From Xiphophorus maculatus (taxonomy: Eukaryota; Chordata; Actinopteri; Cyprinodontiformes; Poeciliidae): a stretch of 64,000 nucleotides of DNA. Below are positions 7,255 through 64,000 of the stretch, in pieces. The notes beneath the pieces are model-generated. The model worked only from the letters and a program-made list of their open reading frames with translations. It did not search any database and was not told the DNA's origin. The stretch's first letter is position 1. Each line of letters starts with the position of its first letter. The stretch covers positions 30,669,084-30,733,083 of the forward strand of contig NC_036462.1 in assembly GCF_002775205.1 (NCBI RefSeq), in the 5' to 3' direction. A program made the translations under genes and the position numbers.

Positions 7255-7446
7255 CACTACTGTCACCCACAAAGCAAGGTCATTTGTCAGTGAGGACATT
7301 TTCCTGGTCCTCAGTTTTCTCAGTCCTACTAGGTTTACAGATAATGTTGTGAGTGTACTGTAATAGTTAGGTTTAGGAAAATATCTGAATTAGGCATAAA
7401 TGCAGTTATTAAATGAATAGGGAAAGTCCTCAGAATGATAGAAATA

Positions 7447-7538
<92 letters not shown>

Positions 7539-7540
7539 CT
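7255..7540. repeat. MITE remnant abutting a long (TG)n tract
   Basis: A segment with 'gtgaggacattttcctggtcctcag' character (7285-7312) and 'gaaagtcctcag...gaaatacaag' (7421-7450) runs straight into an 87-bp pure (TG)n tract at 7451-7537. The same 'gtcctcac...gaaatacaag' end precedes the (TG)n at 20253, so the microsatellite probably grew from the transposon end. Valine-cysteine and threonine-histidine frames here are not genes. Confidence 0.7.
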
Positions 7541-8130
7541 TGTTTTTCCCCCTGCGTGGGGACATTGGCCTGATTCTATACCTACACGTGGGGACCTATT
7601 TACCCGTGGGGACCAAATTTGAGGTCCCCACCGGCACAACCCCATTTTGTAGCGTAAAATGGTGTATAAACATGCCTCGTGAAGTTTTCCAGGAAGTCCC
7701 CATGAACTTCATTTCAAGACAAAATTTGTGTGAGTGTTTAAGGCATGCGCTCATAGTGGTCACACAGAGTATTGCAGTCCCCTTTAGGCTAGGTGTTCTG
7801 GAAGTGTGCTTCACTTACTGCTCACTCTCTAGCCCCCCCTATTGGTCAGAAGGAGTTTTACAATTTAATGGCCAAATTAAACTTTAACTTTAAAAATCTA
7901 ACTTTTTAAACTTAATTTCTTACAGTGTGGGATTATAGAGTATTTTTTTATGTAATTTATTTTAGTTTAATTTAAAGTGAAGTTTACCAATATTTACTTT
8001 TTTATTTAATTTATTGCACTTAGCTAAGCGCTGTGAAAACCTATTGAAACTCAAAGGCTTATTATGATTCTCCTCAGTAAATAAGCACCAATTTGGAGGC
8101 CTAAGAATATTCGAAAACTCAAACTTTGGA
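7541..8130. other. Unassigned non-coding sequence
   Basis: There is a 'GTGGGGACC' repeat-like patch at 7555-7630, then unassigned AT-rich DNA. No coding potential is supported. Confidence 0.5.
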
Positions 8131-8606
8131 GACTGCCGAGGAAGATGGCAGCAGCTAAGAAAGCTCCGGAAATCGACAATTTTCTTTCACATTTATCTGG
8201 AATATACACCTCTCAATTTACCCGGATATAAATACATCTGACATGCTAAAACCTAAAGTATTTCTAAGAAGCCAGATATTAATAATTTACCGACGAAATG
8301 TCAAGCAACAACAAAGCTAACTATTTCAAAGGTGCAGTAACGAGAAGCAAGCTAGCAGCGAGGACCAGCCCCACGCCTGACCGCACTTCTGCTAACCTGT
8401 TGACAGACTTAAGCTGCACTGAAGAGAAACATACCGACCCCAACTTCATGGAAGAAATATGGAACATGAGCGCAACACTACAAATTGTTGCAGCAGATGT
8501 TGTCTCAATTAAAGAAAGAACTAAAGAGCTTAAAGACTCTGTGGAAAATATTCTAATTAGGCTGGGCGAGGTTGAACAGCGGGTGTTCCTCAACAGCACT
8601 CCCTAG
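8131..8606 (+). pseudogene. L1-type LINE 5' fragment: 5' UTR and ORF1 N-terminus
   Basis: A GAAGATGGC start-of-element motif (8141) is followed by a short 5' leader and an open frame of 102 codons from ATG 8298 to TAG 8606. The product starts with a polar N-terminus. It then shows a coiled-coil-like tract (about residues 55-95, with ELKDSVENI and LGEVEQRV) typical of the trimerising region of fish L1 ORF1 proteins. The RNA-binding domain, C-terminal domain and ORF2 are absent. Loss of the 3' part with the 5' end kept is the reverse of ordinary LINE truncation. It is a transposon relic, not a host gene. The family assignment is from recalled ORF1 features. Confidence 0.6.
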
Positions 8607-9550
8607 AAATCTTTTTTTTAAAAATCTGTCCCCAAGCATTTTTCAATCAACAATCATGAACAGACAACAAACAAGCAGACATTACTCAGAACTAAATATT
8701 CATGTCTTTGACGTAGAAAAGTCCCTTCGTAAAGACTGAAACAGTAGCTAAACCAGAAATTAAATTAAAACTAATTTTAAAATCCCTAAAGAGAAACTAC
8801 AATGTAGTATTTCACCCCATGTTCATTAGTCAAGTCAAACAGGTCATGTTTAGGCCTGCTTCGTAGGAATGATTTCCTGAAGAGTTCTGTGTTACAATAT
8901 TAAGTGCAAAAGTTTTCTGCTAAACAAAATCCTTTATTTGCTCTTCGTTTTGTTTAAAGGTTATGCAGTGTTGTCCATTTTAAGTGGCTTACCCATACAA
9001 AATTTCATATGAATAAAAATCAAATTTCAAAGATGATAGATAGACTGTTACTGTTTAGTAGGCACTGTCAGTTAGGCTGAAAATGTCTCATGCCTGGTTC
9101 CCAAAAATGTATTTGGGAGCCAGGCATGACACTTGAAGTAGATTCCTGAGGTCAAACATTGTCAATGGCCTTCAACCAACACATCAAAGATGGGCTAACC
9201 CAAGTAAGATCTCGTAGTTCCTTATATATTCTTCTTGAAAGAAGAAATTATCTGTAAAAGCTAATTGAGATTTGACCAACACTCTATAAAGCACTTCATA
9301 TTTATATCAATTAACAGCCTCTTGTAAATATTTCAATAACATATATGCTCAATATGATTGTACAAATTGGTATTATGTCTTTCTTAACTCCCCTCATCTT
9401 TTTCCAATGGTTTGCTCCACAAGCTCTTAAGTAGGCCATTGGTGACATTGTACCCTTTGGTCTCTCCAGGCCTGACAAGAAGATAACTGAAAGAAGGATT
9501 GGATTTGTTTGACTGACTCTGTTTAAGTTAGAGTTGTTAAAACAATAAAC
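8607..9550. other. Unassigned non-coding sequence
   Basis: AT-rich DNA with no open frame I can support. A small inverted pair, 'catgcctggttccc' (9090) and 'gggagccaggcatg' (9115), can form a hairpin. Confidence 0.5.
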
Positions 9551-10410
9551 TGTAGCATTTTTGAACTTTTAATTCAAAGTGCTTGGTTGAAGACAAAGAA
9601 TGGTTGAAGAAGAGGAATCAAGAATCAGCATGCTACTCAAGCAGGTTGACTGGCTCACATTTATGTATTTATTTATCCACATATAGTTTTCCTTATCTAC
9701 AACAGCCCTCCACCCAGTTTCTCCACAATGGAGAAACTGGGTGGAGGCCATCTCACACACATCCTGAGATTTGATGTCCCCACCTCACCCATGCCCATCC
9801 CCCCTCAACATTCCCTCCATGGCTTGGAGGGAAACATGCTGAACTATAAAGTGTAGCATGTTTTAACTTTTAATGCAAAATGTTTGGTTGAAGATAAAGA
9901 ATGGTGGGATAAGAGGAATCAGTATGCAAATTATTGTAATTTATATATTTATTAATCCACATAAAATTTCCGGATCTGCTGTAGCCCCTCCACCCACTTT
10001 CTCAGTAATGGCTGCCGTCTCACACACATCCTGAGATTTTAAGTTCCCACCTCACCCATGCCCATAACTCCTCAACATTCCCTCCATGGATTGGAGGGAA
10101 ACATACTGTACTATAAAGTGCAGCATGTTTGAACTTTTAATGCAAAATGTTTGGTTGAAGATAAAGAATGGTGGGACAAGAGGAATCAAGAATCAGTATG
10201 CTACTCAAGGAGGTTGGTTGACTGGCTTACAATTCTTCAGTCTCTTTCTGCAAACCTTCCTAATTTATGTATTTATTTTTCCACATCCTAATTTTCTGAT
10301 TTGCTATAGCCCCTCGCCAGTCTCTCTGTAATGGCTGCCATCTCACACACATCCTGAGATTTTGCGTCCCCACCTCACCCATGCCCATCCCCCCTCAACA
10401 TTCCTCCATA
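9551..10410. repeat. Tandem triplication of a 270-300 bp unit
   Basis: Three successive units begin with 'tgtagcatttttgaactttt' (9551), 'tgtagcatgttttaactttt' (9852) and 'tgcagcatgtttgaactttt' (10119). Each contains a 'ttggttgaaga-aaagaatgg' block, a 'tctcacacacatcctgagat' block, 'cacccatgcccat' and 'ctcaacattcc(c)tccat'. The units have diverged through small indels, so the duplication is not recent. No coding function is seen. Confidence 0.85.
9707..9747. repeat. Perfect 19-bp inverted repeat in unit 1
   Basis: CCTCCACCCAGTTTCTCCA, a 3-nt loop, then the exact reverse complement. Units 2 and 3 of the triplication lack the right arm and read 'aatggctgcc' there. Confidence 0.9.
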
Positions 10411-10599
10411 GCTTGCTCTCAAACTTTGCAGATTTGACTGGTGTGGAACCTACAAAATGTCCATTACAAAGAATAATTTTTTCTCCTGACGCATTACTTT
10501 GGGAGATAATACAAGTTAAGTAATTAATTTCCTAGTTTTATAACTTAATTGATGCGCGGTAGAGTTGTGACGCCAAAGTTAAGGTGTCATTAGTTATTA

Positions 10600-10781
10600 A
10601 CACAGGGCTGGGCCGTAAGCCTCAGCTAGCTGCTTTTTGCAACCAAGCAGGAACTCCGGCCTGTGCCGGAGTCTAAATCAAGCGCTCCTTTTTTGACTGC
10701 TGCACACCTGCACCGAAGGACGAGATTCAGACCTTCATGCTAACATCCGAGGAATGAGGAGCAAGCTAGCTAAAGAAAATG
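10600..10781 (+). promoter_or_regulatory. Probable first exon and leader of the recombinase-like gene, with two upstream ORFs
   Basis: The stretch before the first donor (G/gtaaga at 10781/10782) is less AT-rich than its surroundings. It contains ATG 10737 (stop TGA 10755-10757) and ATG 10754, whose frame runs across the splice and stops at TAG 11563-11565. Both short upstream frames precede or overlap the main ATG at 10779. I see no TATA box I would trust, so the transcription start is not fixed. Confidence 0.4.
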
Positions 10782-13700
10782 GTAAGATTATTGTTATTTT
10801 AATGGACTCCCGGTTATTATCTATTATATCACTCAGTCAGATATACTTTTAAATGTTGTTTAAACGTGTTGACCTGTAAAAACTGTTTCAATTGTGTTTC
10901 ACTAGGATGGCTAGCTGACATTAGCCTAGCTACAGCTAATGAGAAGCATGCATGTTTTATTTTCAATTTATTGAGGTCCAGTCTTACAGCAAATAAATAG
11001 AAATAAAAGTGACAATTAACCAAAAAAAGGATAAGTTATTAAAATATGACTGCTCACAAAAATGACTCAAATGCAAAATAAAAAAAGCTAAGTTTGAAAC
11101 ATGCAAACTTAATAGAGCAGAAATCATGAAATATGCAATATTTTCAGTGGCCCTGCTTGTGTGATTGAAAAGAGTAATAACTTAAGAGTAATAACTTTTT
11201 ACATGTGCTCTGAATTGAGAGACGATAGACATGAGGAGCTAAAACATGAGGCAGAAGTAAATGGATGCCTTGTGCATAAAGGTTGATTCTGCTGGGAAGG
11301 GAGCCTTCAGGCCACATTACACCAGACTACATCCTTTTTAAAATAATAAAGATTGGGATTTATGGGGTTTGGGGGGGGGGGTGTAGGAGTGGGGGAGGGT
11401 ATATTAGGATGAATCAGGAGGTTTGAATTGGAAACTAACTTCAGCATCATAACTTTAGGTGGGGGGGGGGATCTGTTTTGGCAAAATTAATTTCAGGCCT
11501 TTGACACTGACTTATAATCATTGAATGCTTTTTTTTTTCCTGGAAAATGCCAACCAGAGAAGTAGATCCAGTGATAGGAGTGACGGTGGAGTAGAGTCTA
11601 CACCCAGCTGTTCCAGTTTAAAAGGTGAATTATCTCAGGGAAAGATGCATTAGCCCACAATGTTTTTCCCACATTTAAGTTGTTTTGCATTAGTGTTTCC
11701 ATTAAATCAATATAATGCGAGTTATAACTGCTCAGGTGAGAGAAGGGAGGTGTGACAAGAAGTCTATTAAAATTATAATTTTTTTAACATGATTTTAGTT
11801 GCCTAGAAGAAGCTACCACAATATCAGTTAATGTTTGATTTAAGACTACCAAGTCAGGTTTTTCTTAAACAAAGAAAAGGCTCAGCACATCTGTCGGTGA
11901 TTTTACTTCAAATGCCAGTTGTTTCTAAATGTCCAAGGAAATAGAGATTTGTGTTAGGGGGGAAGCTTTGGTAGAACCCAGGTCAACTGCTTTCCTTTTT
12001 GCATTCGACCATTGTTGACTTGCTATAACTTTGATAATTTTATTTAATAACCCTTAGTCTAGTTGTTCCAATCTTGAGTATTAAATTGAAAAAGTTAGAA
12101 ATTTTAAAGAATTGCTGAAATTATTGAATACTGCAGGTCGGATATTTATTTCTAATCCCAAATTTAACATTTGTAACCTAGTGATAAGACCCAGAAATAT
12201 TTTGAGAAGACCAAATATAGGAGATGCAGAGCCTCTGAATTGTTTTAAGGTGATATTAACTTTTTTTCTTTTTAAATTTCAGCTACAGATGAGACATTTG
12301 GGCTTGATCCAGAGCAGAGGCAAATGGTAAGTGTGCCTATGAATAAGTTCAAAGGATGTGACAGTATTTCAGTTTCATTCTAGCTCACATGTACTCTTCA
12401 TACTGCATAGCTAATTTAAATATTGTTCTAAATTAAAGTCTGGAAAAGTTGCTGCCCAGTTGTCTTCACCAATGAACATGTGCATTAGTATTTACAAATC
12501 CTACAGTGGGGAAAGTTATTTTTGCTGTAGAGAAGTGGCAAAAATGTTGTTATGCAGAGAAATGCTTGAAGAAGATCATTTTGATATAAGCTTGTCGTAT
12601 TGAGTTTGGGAGGAATGCTGTATCTTGACAATATGTCTCCATCCAAGTTGGCACCTTGTGTTTAACATGTCTGGATCATAGATGATGACTGAAATCAGGC
12701 CTGTTAAGAATTCTCAGATTTTCAAAATATTGTGAAAATTTTTTAATACCCCAGTGATTCACTTCTACTTATTTTAACTGATTATAAAGGCTGATGTCCT
12801 GCACAGATGTTTTCCTGTTCCACCACACTTGACTCAAATTAATGGATCATTAACAAATGTTTTATAACAAGCTATTGGAGAATGATTTGATTTGAATGAA
12901 GTGTGCTGTAGCAACCCCTAAACCCTGGGAGTTGCTGATTCTTGACTTAAAGTTTCACCTGGATGCATCATTCTCAATGTGGTCAGGTGCCAGTTCGATC
13001 TGGGGCCTGTGTCTCCAATTTGTTTAATTTCACAGATGTGGACATTTACAATGCTTGTTTTCTGTGTTTTATAGGATCAAACACGTCAAGCTCGTCGCCT
13101 GCAGAAACTTAAAGCCCATCACAATAAATGTGAGGCTCATCACAAGAAGCTCGTCACAAAGTTGCCTTTGCTTTGTTGCATAAAGGCAACAAATGAAGTG
13201 AGGGAGAACACGTCTTTTCTCCATCAGAAGGGCTTAATGGTTAGTTTTGCTTCACCTTTTTCTTGATGTACCCAGAGATGAGAACTGTTAGTAAATGTAC
13301 CATTGTATGGGTGGCTTGAGCTGTTTTGACAGTATTATTGTACAAATATCAAGAAAATCTTCTTGCAAATTTCTTAATACTTACTATAATTATGTAATCA
13401 ACACAAATTCATAGCTATCTTTAATGCTGGATAAAAACGTCTTTCAATTTTTAAAAGTTTTGTGAAACAAAAATACTGTCAGTTATTACAAGATTTCTAG
13501 TGTCCAACATCACGATGCAGACGCTGCTTATCAGAGAAGAAATACATTTGGTGGTATTTGGCTGCTTTGCAAAATCATGTAACCTGAAACTTTAAACTGT
13601 GCACAGGAGCTTTCTTTGAGGGGGACTCACCTTGTCAGTCAATTCAAATTTATTTAGTGTCTATTACAATACAAGTTGTCACTAGATGCTTCCCAGAGAC

Positions 13701-16700
13701 CCAGACATGGACTAATCAGGACTAAACCCAAAATACTCTGAAGCATTTATTATCTTCCAGTCTATGAAATTCCAATGGCCTGTCAAGTTGAAGTATAAAA
13801 TAAATGTGCATAGTTTCAGTGTCATCTAATCTAAATTTAGTAGGTTAGATTAGGTGGTAATGGATACCAAAATCCAAAAGTAATTGGCCATGGTGTCTGA
13901 TTTTTAACTGTCACATTTGAACACAGCAGAATATTAGCTTTAGGTATATTTGTAACAAATCTGGGTGGATCACTTCATGGTTTGTATTAAATCTGTAAGC
14001 AAGGCATTTGCTTTATTTATCCTCTCACCCACTCTATTAAGTACTGCGCTGTCATATTATACACCATGAAATGCAGAATCTCCAGTGTAATCTGAAGGAG
14101 CCTGTGCACTTTTGGGGCTGTTAGTATGTGACATCTTTGGGATTTCTAAATACCTTGATTCAGTAGAAGTTAACTGTAGCTCTGTATTAAATTGTAACAG
14201 TTCATTTAGGCATGGACACATTTTAATTGTTAAACTTATAATTTTTTGGAGTCAAAACAGTCATCCGATGAGAGCGACGATACCATCATCCTTGGTCCAA
14301 CACCAACTGAAGGGGACATGAGCGTGCCTGAGCTTACAAGAACTGACAGTGTGATTGTAAGTTTATTTATAAATATCATAGTCCAACCTAATGTTAAGAC
14401 TCACTTAGGTTAGAAATTCTATTTTTTCGTAGTATTTAAAACCAAACTATCCAAGAACTCAGTTAGTCGCCATGTGCTGGTAAATCTGTCACTTTTTGAG
14501 GATGCTTAAAAATGTTGGAAAAACATTTGAGCTAACAAGCACCAAAAAAATGTAAAAGAAATCATACTAGTATTGGGAGTATTTCTTTTTTAATGAACTT
14601 TTTAAAACTAGTTGTAGATATTTCACTTCTTCTGATTTGTTTATATGTTTGAGAAATAATCTGAAAGTAATTTCTCTCTTTTTAAAAAAAATAATTTTAG
14701 CTAAACAAACAAATGCTTTGCTACTCAGAAGCATCTCTATCAAGTTCTGACATCACTGAGGAAGAGTATGTTCCCGATTCTGAGGAATCTGAGAGTGGCA
14801 GTCTAAACGACAGTGACAGTTCAGTAGACATTAAACAGCTCAAGAAGAGGAAGAAAAGAGCCCAGAAAAATACTTCTTCTCTGGAAGTCCAACCACTCAA
14901 GAGAATGCGTGTGACCACTTCTAGTTCCTTGACTGCAAAAGATCCTGGAGAATCTTCTTCAACTGATGCAAAAGATCCTGGAGAATCTTCTTCAACTGAT
15001 GCAAAAGATCCTGGAGAATCTTCTTCACTTGATGTGACAGTCATGACCTTGAAGAAGAAGGGAGATGGCAGTAGGGCTTACAATAAAAGGTACTTTTGTG
15101 CATTTTGTAGCAAACCTTACAGCAAAATGGCACGTCATCTAGAAGCAAAACACAGTGATATACCAGAAGTGGAAAGTGCACTGAAATGCCCCAAAGGTTC
15201 TAGAGAACGACTGCTGCAGTTGTCCTTGATAAGAAACAAAGGAAACCGTGCCCATAATAATAAAGTCATTAAAGAGGGAAAAGGAATGCTCATTCCCCGC
15301 CAACAATGCACTAAATCTGCAAAAGCTGGTGATTACTTGCATTGCATCAACTGCGAGGGTTACCTCAAGCGGAAATCCTTGTGGAGGCATATGCAGAGGT
15401 GTTATCTCAGTCAAAAAGTCAAAGGACTGAAGCCAGGAACATCTCGAGTCCAAGCCATTTGCAAATATGCAGAGCCAGTACCAGACAGCGTCAATGCACA
15501 GTTTTGGAAACTAATACGTGACATGCACCATGATGATGTAGCAAAAGTTGTCCAAAGTGAGAAGTGCATCTTGAAATTTGGAGAACATTTGTTCAACAAA
15601 CATGGTCAAGATGTTACAAGACACGAATACATCCGACAGAAGATGCGCGAAACCGCACGAGTTGTTCTGCAAGGGAAGAAAGATGGCAAGTTGGAGACGC
15701 TCCCAGACTTCTTTGTGCCAGCTAACTTCCCTCATGTTATAGATGCAGTTAAGAAAGTGGCTGGCTTGGATGAAAGAACAAACGTCTTCAAAACGCCATC
15801 TTTAGCACTCAAGTTGGGTCACAACCTCAAGAAAGTGGCAAATGTTCTTGAATGTGAGGCTATGATCTCAGGCGATGAGAATACCATTCACAATGTGCGA
15901 ATTTTCAAACAAATCTGTGAGACCAGATGGAGCGAGTGTGTCTCTTCCCATGCTCTTAGGACTTTGAATGAGGCTAAGTGGAATGCTCCTCAGCTTATTC
16001 CCTTTGCTGAAGACGTTAGGAAAATGCACCAGTATCTTGACACAAAAAGGATGGAGTGCCAGAGGAACCTGAAGGAAGAAGCTGTAAAGAAGAACTGGGC
16101 TGAACTTGCCAAGATCACGCTTTGTGAGGTGATAATATTCAACCGGAGAAGAGAGGGAGAAGTATCCAAGATGCCACTGAACGCTTTCACCTTGAGAGAT
16201 ACCTCTGTCACCCATCCAGATGTGGAGCTTGCTTTGTCAGAACTTGAAAAGAAGCTGTGTAAACACTTCCAGCGAATTGAGATAAAAGGCAAACGTGGCC
16301 GAAAGGTTCCCATTCTCCTAACTCCTAATATGGCATCATCAATGGAGTTGCTTGTCCAAAATCGCCGCAATTGTGACGTGTTGGATGAGAATCCATACAT
16401 GTTCGGGAGACCACAGACTCTCAATCACTTCAGAGGATCGGATATTATTCGTGAGATGGCTCAAAACTGTGGAGCAAAACACCCTGGAGCATTGTCCTCA
16501 ACCAAACTGAGGAAGCACATGGCCACCATGTCAAAGGTACTTAACCTAAAGGACAATGAAATGGACGACCTAGCTGACTTCCTTGGCCATGACATTAGAG
16601 TTCATCGTCAGTATTATAGATTGCCTGAAGGGACATTACAGTTGGCAAAAATCAGTAAAGTGTTGCTGGCACTAGAAAGAGGACAGCTCTCCCACTTCAA

Positions 16701-19582
16701 AGGAAGAAATCTGGATGAAATCAGCATTGATCCACAAGGTAAATTGGTATATTTTTTTGTGAAGATTTAATTTGACCCCCTGGCATGGCACGTTTTATTT
16801 ATTTTGATTTTGACTTTGTAAATAAAAAAAAAGATGACATCTATAAAAGTTTGAGTGTCAGACATTGACAACAGTAGGAAGAAGTAGCTCAGCAGGCATT
16901 TTTTATATTACATATTCTAATTCTTGTAGTTTTTTTGTTTGCTTGTTTTAATCTTTGGGAAATTCAATCATAATTTCCCATTGTAAATTGCTCACTTGAA
17001 TGGCCATAGAACAAGGAAAAGCGCTAAGACTGTGCTGACAGCATATGCAATGCTTCATAGTTTAATATGATGGATATTTGTTACTTCATTTTTCAGAGAA
17101 AATGTCTGTGGACAGTGGATCAGACACTGAAGAAGAGGTTGACTCAGCTGAGAGGGATGCTGATACTTCATCTTCCAGATCACCAGATGTGGATGGCAAC
17201 AAAAAAGTAGAAAATGGTGAGGAATCACAAATACATTGATTTCTGCCTTTTGTACAATCTGTTGTCAAGACAGCAGTGCACTTTTAGATTTGTGCTTAGG
17301 CATTTTAACTTACTCTCTAGTCTATTATATATAATATATTTCGATTACATAAAATAGATTTTTAGAATAATTGTCAGAAAACCACAAGGTTAAGCTGTTG
17401 CCATCTTGTTTCTCACCTGGAAGTTGGAAACCAGATTTTATGACATTAAGTTGACTGACTATATCACATCCATCACTGCCAGGGATGTGGACATGTGAAA
17501 AAGTGCTTCCATGACACTTTAGTGAATTTGGGGATTATCGAATCCCCTGAAAAAACACCTCTTGGAATTATAAAAATGGTTTACTCGACATTAAGAAGTT
17601 TTTTCAAATAAGTGCCGTTTCCATTACAAGATCTTTTTTTTTTTTTTTTTTACATTTGATGGATAGATAGAGGTCATGGAAATGAGTCTGATAGTTTCAT
17701 CCATAAAAGGAGAAATGTTTTAAAAAGTGTTGCTAACAGGGCCAAACTAAATGTTGACGGTAAAAATTAGATAATTACAATACCAGCAGCTTTTGATTTA
17801 GTGCTGTTAAGAAATTAGTACAAAGTTAAACTGTTAAGCTAATTATTTGAAATGCTTGTATAAAGTAAACATACTGACTGCTTACACTGTTGAATACGCT
17901 TTTACTTAATATACCTTTGTTTAGGTCAATTTGGGGTGACCAGGAGATGCACCACTGAAGTTGGACAAAGCAATGATCTGCCCTCAGCAAAAGGTAAGAA
18001 TATTTATAAGCGTGAAGAAAATGAGATTGTAGATTTCTGATAAATATTGAACCTTTAGAGGCCACTGTCCTCTATCATTACTCTTTTTCATGTATGTCAT
18101 TTTTGGGTTCTGTCATTTATACAAATTTTCAATGTACTCTGTAACTGATAATTTTGTCCAATATTTTGAGATTTCTTTGGTTTAACAGAGAGGTCAGATG
18201 ACGAGGTACTGGCAGACATGGAAGTCTCTGGCAACTCCAACACGACTAACGGTAGTTTCTCTTCCTCCTTGGAGATTATCAATGAGCAGAAGCTTTAAAA
18301 ATGTTGCCAGACACATCTTTCAAACTGAAGAATTTATCTGACTGCAAATTTTTATTATAAAGAAATTATAACCACCGGGTCTAATGTCTCAACTCCTGTT
18401 CCTCCTGCAAGCCAGGCTTGAGAACATGTAAACCTTTAGTTATTTTTTACACATTTAGTGTTCATTGAATATTTCACATTATCAGGTGTAAACCTATTTC
18501 CAATATTTCCTTAATTTTTTTTATTGAACTAAACAAATGGGTAAATAATGAACATTTCACAGCACTGTCTGTGTGGTGTCAAAATTAGGCTTCCTCATTT
18601 TATAATCTCATGAGGATCACATGATATCTCTACATATAAAACTTTAGAATAGCTCAATTTTCATTTGACTGCATACCCTCAAGCAAAAGTTTGGTTTTAC
18701 TTCTTCTCCCCCTTCTCTCTTATTGCCACCTTGAACTGTCTTCAAACAGCAAACTAACTAGACTGATCAAAGGTAGTTTGGGTGATTATTTTAATCTTTC
18801 TGTTTAACTGCACCTATAAAATATTTCCAAAACCTATAGTGCTAGGAGAACTTATCAGGCCCTGCGAGTTTTCCCAGTTTGGACTCTGTGACAAAGGGAG
18901 ATTTAAGTTTTATCCATTAGAGAGCCCCGCTTATGTTGATGCTCTCTTAACGTAGGCTCACCGAGTTTCCAGCCACCATCAAATCACTCAAAATCTTCCT
19001 TTTGGTGAAGTGTTTTTGAAATGGATGATATTTTAAACAATTTTGTCGTATTTTTTGAACATCCCCTTGACCTTAATTATTTATGCTTGTGAAGTATTTT
19101 GTACAATTAATTCTCTCTTGTACCTGCTGATGCTTCTATAAAGGATGGGGAGATTTATGTGTTCTCTCACTACCAGTTGTCAGCTTCAACAGTGACAACT
19201 ATTGGAGCTGACAGCTGACCCTTAAATATGAAATAATGCTTTACTACAGCTGTAGTAAAGAAATGTTTTCATGATAGCTTTATAACTTGCTCTGTCATAC
19301 AGACTGAAACATTTTTTCATTGAAGAATACTTAAGTGCCCCTAATTATTTTTCAGGCCCACCACAAAAGAAGAGACTGAAGTGGAACCAAGAAGAAATCC
19401 AGGCAGTGGAGAAAACACTCATGGACTGTATTGACTCTGGAAAGGTTCCTGGGAAAGCCCAGTGTATGAAGTGCATTGAAACCTCACCAGTAGCCCTCAA
19501 GGACAGGACATGGCAAGGGATTAAATTCTATGTGAAAAATCGCATAGATGCATTAAAACGAGAGACTTTCAAAAGAAGGTAA
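10779..19582 (+). CDS. Intact ten-exon gene for a Crypton-like tyrosine-recombinase domain protein (about 963 aa)
   Basis: Exons read from splice sites: 10779-10781 (ATG only), 11558-11624, 12283-12326, 13075-13239, 14261-14356, 14701-16738, 17097-17216, 17925-17993, 18189-18251, 19356-19582. All introns are GT-AG. Phases match throughout, giving 964 codons with one stop (TAA 19580). Residue order: basic/serine-rich N-terminus (1-125); acidic serine tract and lysine-rich patch (about 130-200); C2H2-like finger (256-276) and Cys/His cluster (337-359); helical region (about 380-590); recombinase core with Arg-I in NRRREGE (605-612), beta-hairpin Lys in GKRGRKVP (655-662), Arg-II in KLRKH (729), His in LGH (755) and Tyr 764; acidic linker; C-terminal Trp/Lys domain (889-963). 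Neither terminal repeats nor duplicated flanks are visible. Many introns and an unbroken frame favour a host gene derived from a Crypton-type element over a fresh insertion. A low-copy mobile element with introns remains possible. The function is unknown; nuclear DNA binding is inferred. Confidence 0.82.
13635..13720. mobile_element. Fragment of a common teleost interspersed repeat
   Basis: 'gtcaattcaaatttatttagtgtc' with following 'acaatacaagttgtcactag' matches, from memory, the start of a widespread fish repeat ('TTCAATTTTATTTATATAGC'). It lies in intron 4 of the recombinase-like gene. Confidence 0.4.
14701..16738 (+). CDS. Exon 6 of the recombinase-like gene (zinc fingers and catalytic core)
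   Basis: This exon of 2,038 bp carries residues 126-804. Acceptor 'attttag' precedes 14701 and donor 'aag/gtaaat' follows 16738. The finger reads C-x2-C-x10-H-x4-H (YFCAFCSKPYSKMARHLEAK), and a second cluster C-x2-C...H-x3-C follows. The core has the spacing of tyrosine recombinases: a RRxGE motif, a basic hairpin, LRKHMAT, then LGH followed nine residues later by Tyr. The usual His three residues before Arg-II is Thr here. An alternative ATG at 14713 would yield a protein lacking the first 129 residues. I prefer the upstream start because exons 2-5 splice in frame. Confidence 0.85.
14935..15033 (+). repeat. Three in-frame 33-bp repeats in exon 6
   Basis: The unit AKDPGESSSTD occurs three times; units 1 and 2 are identical and unit 3 differs near its end (SSSLD). 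It lies in the disordered acidic segment before the zinc finger. Length variation between individuals or species is likely. Confidence 0.9.
16739..16826 (+). terminator. Possible alternative terminal exon with intronic poly(A) signal
   Basis: If the donor at 16739 is skipped, the frame continues ten codons to TAA 16768-16770, and an AATAAA stands at 16821-16826, 51 nt later. That would make a shorter isoform lacking the acidic linker and C-terminal Trp/Lys domain. This is an inference from position only. Confidence 0.35.
19356..19582 (+). CDS. Terminal exon of the recombinase-like gene: Trp/Lys C-terminal domain
   Basis: Acceptor 'tttttcag' precedes 19356. The exon encodes about 75 residues starting KKRLKWNQEEIQAVEK, with conserved-looking Trp, paired Cys (CMKCIE), a second Trp (RTWQGIKFYV) and a basic tail. 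It ends at TAA 19580-19582, whose first base lies in a 'ggtaag' that looks like a donor. The helix-rich Trp pattern recalls Myb/SANT-like DNA-binding tails. From memory, similar tails occur on many multi-copy, uncharacterised teleost proteins with the same recombinase core. Confidence 0.8.
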
Positions 19583-19829
19583 GCGTTGACCTTTTTGTTA
19601 CTGTGAAAGAAAACGGATCATTTGTTAGTGCCATTACCACGCCGATTCTGTTTGGAGTTTCTGCCGGTTTTGAAGTTTTGAGACAGCTGCAGTCAAGTTT
19701 TGTAATGCAAGTATGTATGCATACTGTATGTTCATGTTTATGGATACATATCAATGAATACATTTCATTTTAGTACATGCATGTTGGATTGTATGTATAT
19801 TTTTTGCAACAAGATACTGGAAGTTATGC

Positions 19830-19835
19830 AATAAA
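19830..19835 (+). terminator. Poly(A) signal AATAAA, recombinase-like gene
   Basis: Canonical hexamer 248 nt after the stop codon of the ten-exon transcript. Confidence 0.5.
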
Positions 19836-19849
19836 ATGGTTCACATAGA

Positions 19850-20250
19850 ACCAGAAAATGTAGTCCATTATTGATGGTTGGCATTAAGCATGTTACCAGG
19901 TACTTAAAAATAACATTAAACAAAAACAAATCTGATATAACACAGTTTATTGACTTAAAAGAACTAGGATTGCTCATATTTGACAAACTGTGTTCCCAAA
20001 AATTACACAGTGCCACCTGGTGGTAGTTGGTGATGGACATGTCCCCACATGGAGCCAAAAACCTGACAGATTTTTGATTTTCTAAATTTGATTAATTTTT
20101 ATGTTAAAGATTATATTTCATGTTCCAATATCCCTAAAAAAAATCCAAACCTAAAACCAAGCCTTTAGCTCATTTAGAAAGTTGGGTCCCCACGTGTAAC
20201 CACCTAGTCACTCGCCAAAACAAGTCCTCACGTTTCGGGAAATACAAGTA

Positions 20251-20292
<42 letters not shown>

Positions 20293-21690
20293 TGTGTGTG
20301 TGTGTGTGGGTGGGTGGGTGGGTGGGTGTGTGTGGGTGTGTGTGAGTCAGGTTTTTATATCCTTGTGGGGCCCTATTTCTGTCTACAATTTGGCGTTGTG
20401 GGGACCTCTGCGCCCTGTAGGGGCATTTCCTTGATCTCCATGAGGGGAAATGCTGTTTTTGGCTTGAGGTGGTTTGTGATAGGCTGTAGAAAATGAATGG
20501 AAGTCAATGAAAAGTCCCCACAAGTCACAAAAACACGGCTATGTGTATGTGTGTCTCCATGGAGTGGAGAGAGTCATCTATTAACTTGGTCTCAAATAGC
20601 ATATGTTTACGACAGACCTACTTCTAGGAAAATAGCTGGGAGTGACTGAGCGCCAAAGGATCAAATCTACTCAGGCTCTTCAGAAAAGATTTCTAGAACA
20701 TTTGTGAATTAGAAATCCAGACTCTCTCTGAAATCTGCCAGCATACTGTGTGGAAAAGCACTTTTCCAAAAGATCTATAATATTTTTGGTGATTTGTGTG
20801 AAACAAAGATATGTAATCATAAGGCTGAAGCAGCTCTCGCGTATACACTTATTTGAGTAGGGAAGATGATAGGAAATGTTCTTTACTATGTTTACAGAAG
20901 AATATTTTTAAAACCAAGTATTTCTTTACAAACTTAGGACAAATTATTGTGGCTACAGCTAAAACCAGATATCTACATATATTAAATAAAAAGACCCATG
21001 CATGTTTTTTCTCGTCTAGAGTTAAATCAGACCAAACTTTTTGTGTTTTAGGTCAGTTAGAATTATACAAACAATTTCTATCTGCTTAATGCCAGAAAAC
21101 TTGGTGAACTTCAGACAAATGTGTTTGTACCTTTTTATTCAGCGTATGTAAATACCTGTTTTCAGCTCCAGATACGATTTGGCCATTTATCATTAGAGAC
21201 TAAAGTTTGATTAGGGATGAAAGACCTTAGACTGGACTTGGACTTGGCCATGGGTCAGAGACAGGATCCAGCAGAGAGGATACCAAACATATTCAGTCTG
21301 AGCTTATCCTTGCTGGGTTTTTTTCTCTTTTTTTTACTGGATTTGTAGTTACAGACAGGTCAATGATTGATTGACAGACTGATATCAACCCAACTGTCGT
21401 CATCATCTGTCTGCCTCTGTTGGTTTTGTCCGATAAACAGTGAGACCAGAAGGGCTGCAGAGACCTTCAGAAACATCGTCTGACCGCACAAATACTGCAG
21501 TCAGACGTCACCAGGTACACGCAGGTCAGTGGCATTGGTTTCGCTCAGAGAGCTGCTTGTGTGTAACTAGATTGTGGGACACTGTAACACATTATGTCCC
21601 ATTTATTCCTCAGATTATAAATACGACTGAAAGATCAATGTAGTCGTTTTTTTTGTTTTTGGTACTTCCACTTTCAAAGCACCTTTTTTA
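19850..21690. other. Repeat-rich intergenic DNA with (TG)n tract
   Basis: It holds a second 'gtcctcac...gaaatacaag' MITE end (20222-20252) joined to (TG)n and (TGGG)n at 20253-20343, then 'tggggacc' repeat-like sequence to about 20540. No gene is supported; the VCVC frame is an artefact. Confidence 0.6.
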
Positions 21691-25534: not shown

Positions 25535-33341
<7,807 letters not shown>

Positions 33342-33749
33342 CCCTGGCCAAACTGCTTCCTCTGGCTCGATTCTGCAGTCTGTTTACACAGATCCGAGAG
33401 AACTTGTCCTTGGCCCTGGAGATGGGTAGACCAAATAAACTACAGTAACCAAGGTCACCCTCCCCACTCCAGTGAGAACCTCAAAGCCGTACAGGAAACA
33501 ATCCAGAGGTGTCCAGGCTGGATGCCGGATTTCTGCAAGGACAAAAAAGCAACATCTAGAAAATGTAACTAAAAACAATCCAGCTCCTCAACATTTTATT
33601 TGATACATTTCTGAGAAACAGTTGAATATGATATATAAAACACTTTATGACATTACTAACACACACACGTCCTGATTCGGCTTCAGGTTTATGCTTTGTT
33701 ACATTATCTCGTTTTCATCAAGGTTCGGAGTTCATGATTTAAGAGATGA

Positions 33750-38490: not shown

Positions 38491-41400
38491 CTGTATGGGA
38501 AAAACAACAGGGGTTCACCAGAGGAAGAAAAAAAAACCCTCAAACATTCTCCTTTCGTACAGAAAGCTTGACCTTAGAAGTCTTACTAATACAACCTTTG
38601 GTTGCATTAATTCATCAAGAAACGTAAACATGTTGGGAAATAATTGGAGACCTGTGGGAGACATGCTAAGCTATGGCTCCATTTGCTGTAATGCCAGGAA
38701 AGAATTTTACACCAATTACTGAGAAGGGTGTAAATAATTAGACTTTGTTAATATGAAATTTAAATTACAACTTTTTTCAGAAAGTGAGGTTTGTTTTAGC
38801 AATATTTTATCATCTTCATAGACATATCTGCTTCATTTCCATCACCTCCCAGCCTGAAACTTGTTTTTAAATCACTGTATTTTACACTTGAGTACCACTA
38901 GGTGTCACACTCTCAAGTCCACAATTGTGACTGAACTCACCTGTAAAATGTTGACAGGTAAGTCGACGGTGAGCTGAGAGTCGGAGGTGGACGGCTGGGA
39001 GCTCAGCTGGAAGGCCAGGTCACCATCACTGGCTGGATCGTCCTGCATCAACACACACACACACACACACACACACACTTCAGCATGGTTTCCAACAACA
39101 GCTGCAGCCACTGCTACGCTCTGAAGTCGACGGTAAGATGAAAAAGAAAGAGATGGAGCCTAATGGTTCCTGCTGCGCAGAATTGTTGTCAAGTGATCAT
39201 CTCAGACCTTGGCAGCAATGTTTTGACAGCATGTTGGACAAACCCGACCTAAACACATCTTTTCATTTTTCCTTCATTAGAATGAATTATTGACTGTGTT
39301 TCCAAACTTTAAATAAATGATGTCTGAAACAGCATGAGTGGCTGCGGGGTGAATCAGAGGGTATGGGGCAGAAACAGGAAAAGGTTGGACGAAACGGCAC
39401 ACAGGTCTGGAGCCTTAAAGCTTTAAACTGCCTCGTTCAGAAATTAAACAGAAATCCATTTCCACTTTCCATTTAATGACCAATATCAGCATGTCTATGA
39501 GGAAGAGTGTGGCAGGACCATGCAGGTCAACATTCCTGGACTCACCAGTTCCAAACTTTCAGTTGTTAGCTCACTACTGTGTCTTAAAGCTGGGCTATGT
39601 AACTTTTAGAATAGAAATTATTTTTATATAGCGTGTAGACACGGTTGATTGACAGCATTTGGAACCTCCTCTTGGCTCTGATTGGTTGTTTTTGGTCAGG
39701 GGCGGAGCATTTCTTCAGAAGGCAACAGTAGCTGATGGAGGAGCTCAATCTATTCACATATTTCTCTCATGCTATCCCAACATGGTGATAGCTTTAATAA
39801 ATATGTAAAAAACTGAAACTGTTTTAATAAAAGTTACATATTGCAGCTTTTAAAAGCAGTAGAACAATATACAAAGTTGAATCTAATATAAAACTTAATC
39901 TCTTAGGGGCAGAGCTGTTCCATTCAGTTCTATTAGTTTGAACACCAACAGACCCAGTTACAGCCCAATAGAGAGAGGAGACAGAGGTGGGTAGTGCAGG
40001 CTGGCAGCTGCAAGGCATGGTGTGTTCACTGACTGGAAAAAAGATTGAATTTTTCACTTTCTAAATGCCAGGCAGGAAACTGTCCCACTGAGCTCCCCAG
40101 CTCACGTCGTGGTTCGTGTCTGATTGAAAGCACAGAAGAAGAAAAGCAGCGCTATGTGCGTAGCGATCTGAGGGAGTGTGTTAGCAAACACACTGTGGGC
40201 TGAATCTCACCTGCAGCAGCTGAATCTGGACATACTGAGTCCCTGTGACCGGGTCCCGCAGGGTCAGACCCCCACCGGCTGCTACAGCGCCGTCACCGTA
40301 ACGAGTGCCAGACGAAGTGAGGGGTACGGTTGCCACAGCAACCTTTGATGCTTTAGTTTTCCTCTGGCATGAGCCTGAAGTTCCTAGAATGTGGAAGACG
40401 AGTGAAAGGTTAAGGTGCTGTAACTCTGCAGTCAGTGGAGGGGAGGTGGAGGTCCTCACCAGCGCCGGCTGAAGAACCCCTCTGCTTCTTCTTCTTGGCA
40501 AGCTGGATGGCTCTGTAGTCTGTCCGGGCAGAACCGCCACTGTCCTGAGGGAGAACCATGACAGAACAATTCCTGACTGTTCCTAGCCAGAACCTCTGAC
40601 TCATGAGAGGCACAGGTGAGGACGTAAACCAGGATGAAGGGTTTTCTCTCACCAGGAAGCTGCTGGGTGACACGGCCAGGTCCAACTCCTTCTGGGGGCT
40701 GAAGCCGCTGCCGCCGGAACCGGGGAAAATAAACTGAGAAGTGACGACTTTCCCTGCTTCCTGAGGGCCCAGAACCTCCACGCAGCCCAGCAGGTGGCCC
40801 ACGCCTCCTTGCGCTCCAACCTCTGCCACCTTGGAGGGTGAAGCCAGGAGCTCAGACACGGGGGCCACCGCCAAGCCAGCGGCGGACTCCACCCCGAGCC
40901 CACCAGTGGAGCCGAGGGGGTGCTGCAGGGCCGGGTCCACGGCGGCGCCCTGCATGCTCAGGGCGGCGAGGGTGCCCAGAGCCTCTGGGGTGACCGACTG
41001 AACGTCGTCTAGGTTGAGAGTGCCTTGGGGAGGGAGGACATCCCCCACGGTCCCCTCCAGTCCATGCTGGTGGGCCAAGTCGGCACCGGTCACCATGACG
41101 AGTGGTTCCAATGGCTTGGCCAATGTGGTACCGGCGCTGGCGACAAGTGTGGTGCCCACTGATGACGGGTCGATGGTAAGGATCCCTGAGCTGACCAGGG
41201 ACAGGTCCATGGTGAAGGAGCCATTGGAGGCGCCTCCAGCCACAGGGATCCCCACCTCGATGCCGGCGGTGGGCGCAGCGCCGCCGGGGACCGAGGAGAA
41301 CAGGGAGCTGAGGTCCAGGCTGGACAGCTGCTCCGCCCCGCCAACGCCAGCACCAGCTACTGACGACGGGGTGGAGCTGATGAGTTCACTGCTGGGAGTC

Positions 41401-44400
41401 AGGGTGGGTGTGGTCTCCATCTGGCATAGAACATCTGCAGAACAGAGAACAATAACAAAACAATGTGAATGCTGCGAGAAGCACTGGAAACTACAGTGTT
41501 CTGGCTAATTACCGATCTTTAAAAAGCCTGACGTGCTGATTCCGATTTTGGCTGATACCACTTTGTTTTTTTTGTCTGAAATGTCGCTGAATATAGTAAG
41601 AAAGTTGCTGAACCGGCAACAGTGGGGTGACTACTGTTAACTGGAGACATGCAGGGGTTTTCCTGGGTTAGGAGGAACCCTGCTGGGTACCCACCGGGGC
41701 TGAGGTGGTGGTGTTTGAGCATGTGGCTCTTCAGGTTGCTGCGGGAGGAGAAGTGCTTGGAACAGTTGGCCACCGGACAGCGGGTCCTCAGGGTGCTGGC
41801 GTCTTGTTTATGCTTCTTAGAGTGGATGTATAAGCTGCTGCGGGCTGAAAACTTGGCGTAGCAGCCTGAGGACAGGAAGCAGACATTATGGTTCCTGTGA
41901 CCAGAGGTGGGCAGAGGACACAAAAATTGTACTCAAGTAAGAGTACCACTACAACATATTTTTACTCAAGTAAAAAGTAGCCATTTGAGAAATTACTCAA
42001 GCAGGAGTAAATAAGTATTTAGTAAAAAGTCTTGTAAAGTACTGAGTAACTGATCAAATTAACAATCACGTAAGGTTTAAAAATTACATAATCAGACGGA
42101 ACAAAATATAAAGTGGAAGCGTTGGTATTTTAAGGAGGAAAATGATAATAATTCACATAAATAACAAAATTAGTACCTTTCAATAAAAAAAACTTATGAA
42201 GCTTTAATAAAGACCTGCAGCTGTGTGTCTGTGTCTGATACATTTTTGGTTAAAACATGTTTGTTCTTCATTCAGTGGGTAGAGAATCCAGAAATTTCAC
42301 TCAAGAGCAGCGATACTTAGCTAAAATTACTGAAGTACAGCATAGTAAAACTACTTGTAAAAGTACTTTTTTTTTTCAAAAAAACGTTACTCAAGTAAAT
42401 TTAATTGGGTAAATGTAACAAGCTACTTCCCAACTCTAGTAACTAGCTGAGGCACATCTGCTGGATAATTCAATGGTCACAATTGCTGAGTCGCTTTAAA
42501 CCACGTCCTCTGTCGTAAAGGCTGCTAGACGGATAAAGAGTTAGCCGACCTTCTGCGTGGCACTGAAAGGGTTTGGTGCCCAGGTGGGTGATGCTGTGGC
42601 CCTTCAGGTGCTCAGCTCTGGTGAAAGACTTCCCACAGCCCTCCTCCGGACAGACAAATCGACGGTCATCGTCATGTTTCCTGATAAAAACCATGCAGAC
42701 AGCCGTTATCATTTCATACGCCAGGGAGATGGAACCGCTCTGTTCACGTCAGAGGAAGCTCTCACCGTTTGTGACGGAGCAGCTTGGACATGCTGGTGAA
42801 TGACCAACCGCAGCCCTCCGAGTCGCACACAAAGGGCCTTTCACCTGAGGAAACAGCCGCATGGTAACCATGACGACATGTTAAAAGTCTCTTCGGTTTG
42901 AATTGTTTTTCTGGATACGTCACAAATACGTTTCGGAAGGTGAAAGTTCTTACATCCTTTTGCCTTCAGTGTCGTGACTTTTTTATTTATTTTTGCAGAG
43001 ATGAATGATAATACATCCTGGTTATTAAAATTGTCTGCTAATATCCCTGGCTTTTCTGATCATTTTCTGATCGCTTTCATTTTGATTGAGAACTTTGAAA
43101 GCACAGTGCGAACAGGTCAGAGCACAAAGTGTTTCATGTCTCTGGAGTTTGGACTTTAACACTGTGAGGAAGGATTCTAATGTTGGATGACAACTGCTTT
43201 GATGATTCAACAAGTGAAACACTCTCACTGAAAAAACTCAACTCAGCTGAGACTCAAACCCGACTGGGATTTTACCACACAAGCTGATCAAGTATGCATG
43301 TTGTTATCTGACGAACACACACGTGTGTGTGTAATGGCCCGCCAGCTCACCTGTGTGACTCCTCATGTGAATTTTCAGGCGGCAGGCCTTATCGTAGGTC
43401 TTGTCGCAGCCTGGGTAGGTGCAGCTGAACTGGCCCGTTTCTCTGAAGTGAGTGCGATTGTGTGAGAAGAGGGCACTGAAGGTGATGAAGGTTTTCTCAC
43501 AGCCTGTACAGGAGAGGAGAGCAGCTGGAGCTTAAAAAACCAGCAGTGCACCGATTGCAGTTTTCTGGCCAACTGACGATTACAGATTTTTTCAAAAGCC
43601 TGAGAGGCCGATTTCGATCGTGGCCTATACCGATTTTTTGTTGTCGTCTTAAACGTCGCTAAATATGGCAAGAAACGCACTGTTTCTGAGTTGGAAACAA
43701 TAGGGTGACTGTTTATTACAAACACGACCTAGTGGGCCGGTCTGCCAGTCAAACCTCTCTAACTTCGGAACAGAAGAGGACAGTGGATGATTTTTAGACC
43801 TTTGCTGATAAGATAAGATTGGAGGAAAAGATCGGCTTCACGTGCAAGTATCGGTCTTTATCTGTGCCGATAAAGACTCAAGATTGGACCCACAAGCTCA
43901 AATATATACACCACCTCTAAGTAGGCCAATCAGAAAACGTTCCTAAACCAATGTTGTCTGTATTTGGGAACAACTTCCTGTTGGAAAACTAGCTTTATCC
44001 ATCTGACCCAGGATGTCCCAAACAGATCTGGAAGTAGCTGAACACTAAAGTGTCCACAGTGAAATCAACATGGCCAGAAAGGATCGACCCTGAGGATCGA
44101 CTGAAACTTGCCGGTTTTTAAACCAGCATTCTAAGGTAAAGTTTAATAGTAACAAGGGGAACATATTAATCTATCAGTGGATAACCATGTTATTGCCTTG
44201 GTGACGGTGGTCTAGGTGCAATTACCTAAGGAACCGTTTATCCAAATATCAGCACTGTATGGATGTATTTGAACCGTAATGTATTCAGAGAAAATTCTCA
44301 ATGAATCCAAACTTGTGGACCAGCTGAACTGGGTTTTCCTGAGTTCAGCGAAAGCGTTTGTGCCTCACAGTAAAAGGCCTTCATGAGCTAAATGAGCATG

Positions 44401-46397: not shown

Positions 46398-46520
46398 CTT
46401 GGTATCCCTGTAGCAGCGGCACCGAAAGGGCCCGCCCTAAAAGCCGGAGATGATCCATCCAGCCACAACACGGTTTCTGTCAGGCCGAGTGCCGCGTTCA
46501 GGGCGTGTATGGAAATCCAG
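46398..46520 (-). promoter_or_regulatory. zxdc: Candidate zxdc promoter
   Basis: GC-rich stretch with a GC-box-like 'gggcccgccct' (46429-46439) directly upstream of the ATG; beyond 46520 the sequence turns AT-rich. The transcription start is not determined. Confidence 0.35.

Positions 46521-52774: not shown

Positions 52775-64000
<11,226 letters not shown>

Follow-up and report, generated by a model that had tools for sequence, protein, structure and literature searches.

Gene structure and copy number

A gene of ten exons lies at 10779–19582 in a 64,000-nucleotide stretch of Xiphophorus maculatus contig NC_036462.1 (positions 30,669,084 to 30,733,083, forward strand; referred to as the window hereafter). 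It is the one recognisable gene in a 12.7-kb element, and it combines zinc-finger-like motifs, a catalytic part like that of a tyrosine recombinase (YR), and a C-terminal domain. The element is present in nine copies in the genome and is very probably a recently active DNA transposon that targets TG microsatellites. Features of the element and its gene are listed in Table 1.

The ten exons splice to 2,901 nt and a single unbroken frame of 966 amino acids (aa) plus stop. AG acceptors are present at exons 2–10 and GT donors at exons 1–9. This bears out an initial annotation made from the sequence, which had proposed ten GT-AG exons and about 963 codons without a frame break. Exon 6, the central exon, sits within a 689-codon open frame. 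Two zinc-finger-like Cys/His motifs can be recognised in it by eye, with a weak Pfam match to zf-H2C2_5 (E value 0.083). They are followed by RRREGE, KGKRGRK, TKLRKHMAT, and LGHDIRVHRQYY, in that order, so the YR landmarks of the initial annotation were recovered as described, from RRREGE through KGKRGRK, LRKHMAT, and LGH to a Tyr nine residues on. The spacing of nine from His 758 to Tyr 767 matches the aligned columns of lambda Int. We take the classical active site to comprise Arg I, the hairpin Lys, a box-II His/Lys, Arg II, His/Trp III, and Tyr. Five of these six positions are present in order, and the same five are kept in a second family of elements in this genome (family A, below). The Trp/Lys domain of exon 10, which had been described as a separate unit, has a counterpart in the same order in family A (32% identity over 62 aa, E value 9e-6), where both the acceptor AG and the stop of the C-terminal exon are seen.

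Exon 6 was searched against the assembly from which the window was taken (704 Mb, 101 contigs), yielding 47 matches at E values up to 0.001. Nine copies, including the window, are 99%–100% identical over all or nearly all of the exon and are located on nine contigs, with four at 100%. The remaining 38 comprise full-length or long matches at about 28%–44% identity and fragments of 25%–93% identity. The initial annotation had described an intact multi-exon gene and had named many near-identical copies as the result that would count against one; because nine such copies occur on nine contigs, the single-gene reading is refuted.

The copies have diverged very little. There are no substitutions between the window and the C13 copy in 12,704 aligned positions, introns included (2,901 coding and 9,803 non-coding). 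Divergence within the group formed by the window, C4, C13, and C19 is at most 0.10% in coding and 0.06% in non-coding sequence, and values for other pairs range from 0 to 0.63%. Seven of the nine copies have an intact frame and no lost splice site. The frame is broken by a premature stop in C8 and by a frameshift in C5, and those of C22 and C21 are open yet 24 and 57 nt shorter. Introns are kept in all nine copies, and retroposition was therefore rejected as their origin. Further partial or degraded copies were found on C3, C16, and C23; the C16 copy has lost two internal stretches and retains both ends beside TG.

Termini and TG junctions

The non-TG sequence common to all nine copies extends from window position 7537 to 20250, and BLAST alignment pieces continue into TG arrays. 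The right junction adjoins a TG array in all nine copies. TG follows the terminal ACAAGTA directly in eight of them, and GG precedes the TG repeats in C13; in the window and C19, the junction reads TGCG and then continues as TG repeats. The left junction is a pure TG run of 7–43 units in each of the eight readable copies and an assembly gap in C21. The TG strand is identical on both sides and across all copies. Background TG/CA arrays of seven or more units account for 0.52% of bases (460/88,069). Flanks of the eight other copies were retrieved as well. Outside the arrays, flanking sequences are unrelated apart from two brief cross-matches of 40 and 53 bp (E values up to 1e-10). Dispersed near-identical copies, fixed ends, and unrelated flanks are the marks of a mobile element, and their presence here supports the suggestion in the initial annotation that the recombinase may still be mobile.

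The ends of the element are inverted relative to each other. When the first 27 bases are set against the reverse complement of the final 27, 20 positions match, a value reached by none of 200,000 random 27-mer pairs drawn from the element. The initial annotation had reported no visible terminal repeats; these came to light once the true ends were known, outside the interval that it had covered. Each end also holds copies or near-copies of GTGGGGAC in either orientation, and two more copies of GTCCCCAC are found at element positions 2240 and 2830. The left subterminal cluster possibly represents recombinase arm sites. Besides exon 6, there is no open reading frame (ORF) longer than 160 aa in the element, and its other ORFs of 100 aa or more, on both strands, had no Pfam match above the cut-off.

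The window copy appears to have been inserted between an older right-end-like sequence (~7400–7450) and a short element (~20335–20550). The left flank at 7400–7450 ends in GTCCTCAGAATGATAGAAATACAAG(TG)n and resembles the right end of the element itself. A pattern search with a presumed right-end variant of fish repeats matched only this left flank.

Table 1. Features of the TG-flanked element and its gene (window coordinates; empty cells, no entry)
Feature	Position	Strand	Basis
Whole mobile element, 12,714 bp	7537..20250	+	unit common to nine copies
(TG)43 microsatellite, left junction (insertion target)	7451..7536	+	
Left terminal inverted repeat, 20/27 matching right end	7537..7563	+	
Left subterminal cluster: GTGGGGAC at 7556, 7588, 7606; GTCCCCAC at 7624	7556..7631	.	
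Diverged tandem repeats within element, upstream of gene	9541..10415	.	self-comparison
Exon 1, coding part (ATG only)	10779..10781	+	splice/frame reading
Exon 2	11558..11624	+	splice/frame reading
Exon 3	12283..12326	+	splice/frame reading
Exon 4	13075..13239	+	splice/frame reading
Exon 5	14252..14356	+	splice/frame reading
Exon 6: two zinc-finger-like Cys/His motifs, then YR-like catalytic part	14701..16738	+	
Arg 612 (Arg I, in RRREGE)	16150..16152	+	motif and alignment
Lys 659 (beta-hairpin Lys, in KGKRGRK)	16291..16293	+	motif and alignment
Arg 732 (Arg II, in LRKHMAT)	16510..16512	+	motif and alignment
His 758 (in LGH)	16588..16590	+	motif and alignment
Tyr 767, presumed nucleophile	16615..16617	+	motif and alignment
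Exon 7	17097..17216	+	splice/frame reading
Exon 8	17925..17993	+	splice/frame reading
Exon 9	18189..18251	+	splice/frame reading
Exon 10: Trp/Lys-rich domain at the C-terminus, resembling Myb/SANT by eye, and stop	19356..19582	+	
Right subterminal motifs: GTCCCCAC at 20041, 20186; GTCCTCAC at 20224	20041..20231	.	
Right terminal inverted repeat, ending ACAAGTA	20224..20250	-	
Imperfect TG array, right junction, beginning TGCG in window copy	20251..20334	+	

Related elements and genomic setting

Three of the exon 6 matches, at 44% identity, have equal scores, which points to a second family whose copies are recent. Copies of this family A on C11 and C19 were compared, and the third (C16) is known by its score only. 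The family A protein is 44% identical to that of the window. Between the two fish families, the catalytic region is 50% identical, with no change at Arg I, Lys, Arg II, His, or Tyr. Across the 11,394 bp that lead to the right end, the C11 and C19 copies are 99.96% identical; this end reads ...GGGACCTGTA and is followed by TG repeats and then by different flanks. Identity is 99.36% over 16,102 bp when the upstream array is included.

Upstream of the YR exon in the C19 copy of family A (L043:2587-3177) are two exons with Pfam SET matches (E values 1.6e-4 and 1.2e-11), which look KMT5A-like by eye. Between the SET and YR exons, a 72-nt open unit with CAG before it and GT after it recurs like an exon array. 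There are 11 matches to this unit in the C19 stretch and 19 in the C11 stretch, which begins inside the array, with a spacing of mostly ~381 bp. Together with the downstream array, the SET exons may be part of a SET-YR gene carried by a second TG-ended element. In the C11 copy, frames on the minus strand (L042+L038, 9355-12086) resemble by eye a nested Gypsy-type retroelement.

Short TG-flanked repeats with GTGGGGAC and GTCCCC number in the hundreds in the genome, and one of them is the short element at ~20335–20550 of the window. The left-end pattern beside TG was found 289 + 107 times, compared to 2 + 16 for a reversed control, in counts where overlapping matches enter repeatedly. The right-part motif of the short family was found 402 times at up to two mismatches, irrespective of neighbouring TG, and never in the control. 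Three short loci were read, picked from the first 100 left-end pattern places listed. Two (L044 and L046, roughly 300 bp) have the full layout, with TG on both sides, GTGGGGAC repeats on the left, and GTCCCC on the right, and L045 has the left part only. The short elements may have been moved by this kind of recombinase.

Elsewhere in the window, minus-strand neighbours of the element are located at 32082-33383, 40413-46436, and 62717-63094; by eye they include KLF15- and ZXDC-like genes, and a copine is identified by Pfam (PF07002). A perfect 216-bp inverted repeat lies outside the element (55616-55831 and 56346-56561). Judging from its left flank (L013), the C19 copy seems to have entered an intron of a gene with a PACS-like exon (by eye), a short distance past a splice donor.

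Recombinase assignment, competing explanations, and proposed mechanism

The motifs and a weak profile match make it likely, if not proven, that the protein is a tyrosine recombinase, as the initial annotation held. A two-sequence profile (window protein and family A) was aligned with hhalign to ten phage recombinases. The reference consisted of diverse integrases; the 80 lambda Int relatives retained from viral contigs were all listed at 99% and useless for a profile. The catalytic part matched with an E value of 0.0042 and a score of 24.3; no column shuffle out of 200 attained that score, and the reversed control gave 13.1. In a longer run, Arg I, Lys, Arg II, His, and Tyr fall on lambda Int columns. 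No relatives were found in a collection of viral contigs (one chance-level phage match, E value 3) or in a collection of prokaryotic genome contigs, and a viral or prokaryotic source for the gene was rejected on these grounds. Similar uncharacterised proteins presumably occur in other teleosts.

We conclude, with a probability of about 0.85, that the unit at 7537–20250 is a recently active, autonomous, intron-containing DNA transposon of the YR type that targets TG microsatellites. The case is strong on anatomy, and the mechanism we infer from sequence. Several results weigh against this conclusion. The element is known here from the genome alone, not from a circle, a transcript, or an empty site. 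The box-II position, which is His in most YRs, is occupied by Thr 729. The hhalign match has a probability of 8%, the best shuffle scored 23.6 against 24.3, and the aligned segment is chiefly the hairpin; the longer run has an E value of 0.025 and a probability of 1.9%. Pfam returned no match for exon 6 at E values up to 1 and none for the catalytic part up to 10; pieces of exon 6 searched up to 10 gave below-cut-off matches only (CpG_bind_C, 0.007; MamL-1, 0.013; and the zinc-finger family above). Nothing above the cut-off was found in NCBIfam, in PHROGs (one weak match, E value 0.13), or in a PDB sequence search (two weak matches, E values 0.47 and 0.76). A search of the same genome with the PF00589 profile returned nine places, none of them at these loci. 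The single-sequence fold model was unusable (mean predicted local distance difference test score 37.5). Gapped local alignment of the 150-bp ends was unimpressive, with 18 of 2,000 random pairs scoring as high, and no left end of family A turned up in the stretches covered.

Other YR and repeat-targeting elements were considered for comparison. DIRS and Ngaro are YR retrotransposons and share a tyrosine recombinase with the element described here. They differ in that introns are kept in all nine copies here and in that no reverse transcriptase was seen, there being no such Pfam match among element ORFs of 100 aa or more, a search that a reverse transcriptase in small exons would escape. Dada and TA-microsatellite Mutator elements rely on DDE-type chemistry and not on a YR. 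The likeness lies in their being DNA transposons reported to have a repeat or microsatellite target preference (PMC8869645, PMC4486113). Among the literature matches listed, judged by title and the start of the abstract, there was no such fish element; Repbase, Dfam, and most subscription papers were outside this scope.

The nearest functional precedent, compared by description only, is provided by the telomere-specific YRs of endogenous nimaviruses, which likewise combine a YR, a zinc motif, and insertion into tandem repeats. They are reported to insert into telomeric tandem repeats, to carry a C2H2 zinc motif with five of seven key residues located, and to lack a close relationship to Crypton, DIRS, or Enterprise; for distant relatives specific to 28S, multi-exon genes are predicted (PMC10871703). 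Their hosts are crustacean virus genomes (majaniviruses of 278–401 kb) and their targets (TAACC)n or 28S rDNA (PMC10871703), whereas the present element is 12.7 kb long, has one recognisable gene, adjoins TG arrays, and is not accompanied by a nimavirus genome.

Membership in the animal Cryptons (CryptonA and CryptonI) is not supported, and we consider it unlikely that the element is a true CryptonA with unusual features. A YR is the only recognisable enzyme here, and animal Cryptons are DNA elements with a YR that occur in animals, including fish (PMC3212892). However, exon 6 has no match to the Pfam Crypton/DUF3504 family at E values up to 1, exon 10 adds a C-terminal domain that is conserved in family A, and the element has inverted ends (20/27), a TG target, and ten exons; animal Cryptons are described without a C-terminal domain and without terminal repeats (PMC3212892). 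The Pfam result and these published descriptions set the element apart. Host genes with DUF3504 are reported to have lost the catalytic site (PMC3212892), whereas catalytic residues are kept here. The label Crypton-like in the initial annotation therefore holds loosely, in the sense of a DNA element that uses a YR, and fails on the Pfam result, the C-terminal domain, and the inverted ends.

Movement in trans by another enzyme, such as a TG-preferring DDE transposase, with the YR gene as a passenger, is improbable. Inverted ends are typical of DDE elements too, and hundreds of short relatives lack the YR gene, but no transposase-like Pfam match was found among element ORFs of 100 aa or more. 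Moreover, the catalytic landmarks are retained in two families whose YRs are 44% identical, and the right end of each abuts TG. More improbable still is a recombinase-free origin, in which homologous recombination at TG arrays would have produced ectopic duplicates. TG arrays can recombine, and the copies are flanked by them, but the nine copies, each on a separate contig, have identical non-TG end bases and brought no flanking sequence with them, the longer second family ends at TG, and two short elements have TG on both sides. Domestication of an old YR element as a host gene, the other option raised in the initial annotation, would fit the long intact frame, ten exons, and extra domains, but is scarcely credible and was rejected at this locus by copy number and shared ends: the near-identical copies number nine, each on its own contig, they have their non-coding ends in common, two of them have broken frames, and the shared 12.7-kb unit reaches past the gene on both sides.

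YR recombination demands an identical overlap sequence in both partners. For a transposon of this type, we propose that the recombinase would bind the inverted ends and that recombination across the flanking TG repeats would release a circle. The circle junction would be GAAATACAAGTA-(TG)n-TTCTTGTTTTTC, with (TG)n enclosed by one arm and its inverted counterpart. Because the ends are imperfect inverted repeats, the excised circle would carry a core site in the style of YRs, with two inverted binding arms around an overlap and TG as the spacer. The circle would then recombine into another TG microsatellite, and since YRs need the same overlap in both partners, a TG overlap would alone direct it there. 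Arm binding would involve the zinc motifs, the C-terminal domain, and the repeated GTGGGGAC motifs.

As a probable YR DNA transposon, the element is made unusual by its TG-microsatellite target. A wider view, to which we give about an even chance, is that it belongs to an unrecognised lineage of recently active, intron-bearing YR transposons of ray-finned fish, in which the TG repeat itself would be the crossover, TG microsatellites would serve as attachment sites throughout the genome, and the hundreds of short TG-flanked repeats would be non-autonomous offspring; cargo in some families, such as a SET histone-methyltransferase domain, and kinship to the nimavirus recombinases are both possible. 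If true, this would make it a vertebrate YR transposon, active in recent times, whose strict preference for a simple repeat follows from the YR overlap rule. A TG-specific integrase for a 12.7-kb unit is a directly testable idea. TG microsatellites, usually viewed as passive products of slippage, would then be linked with a mobile-element system as well as with numerous short repeats.

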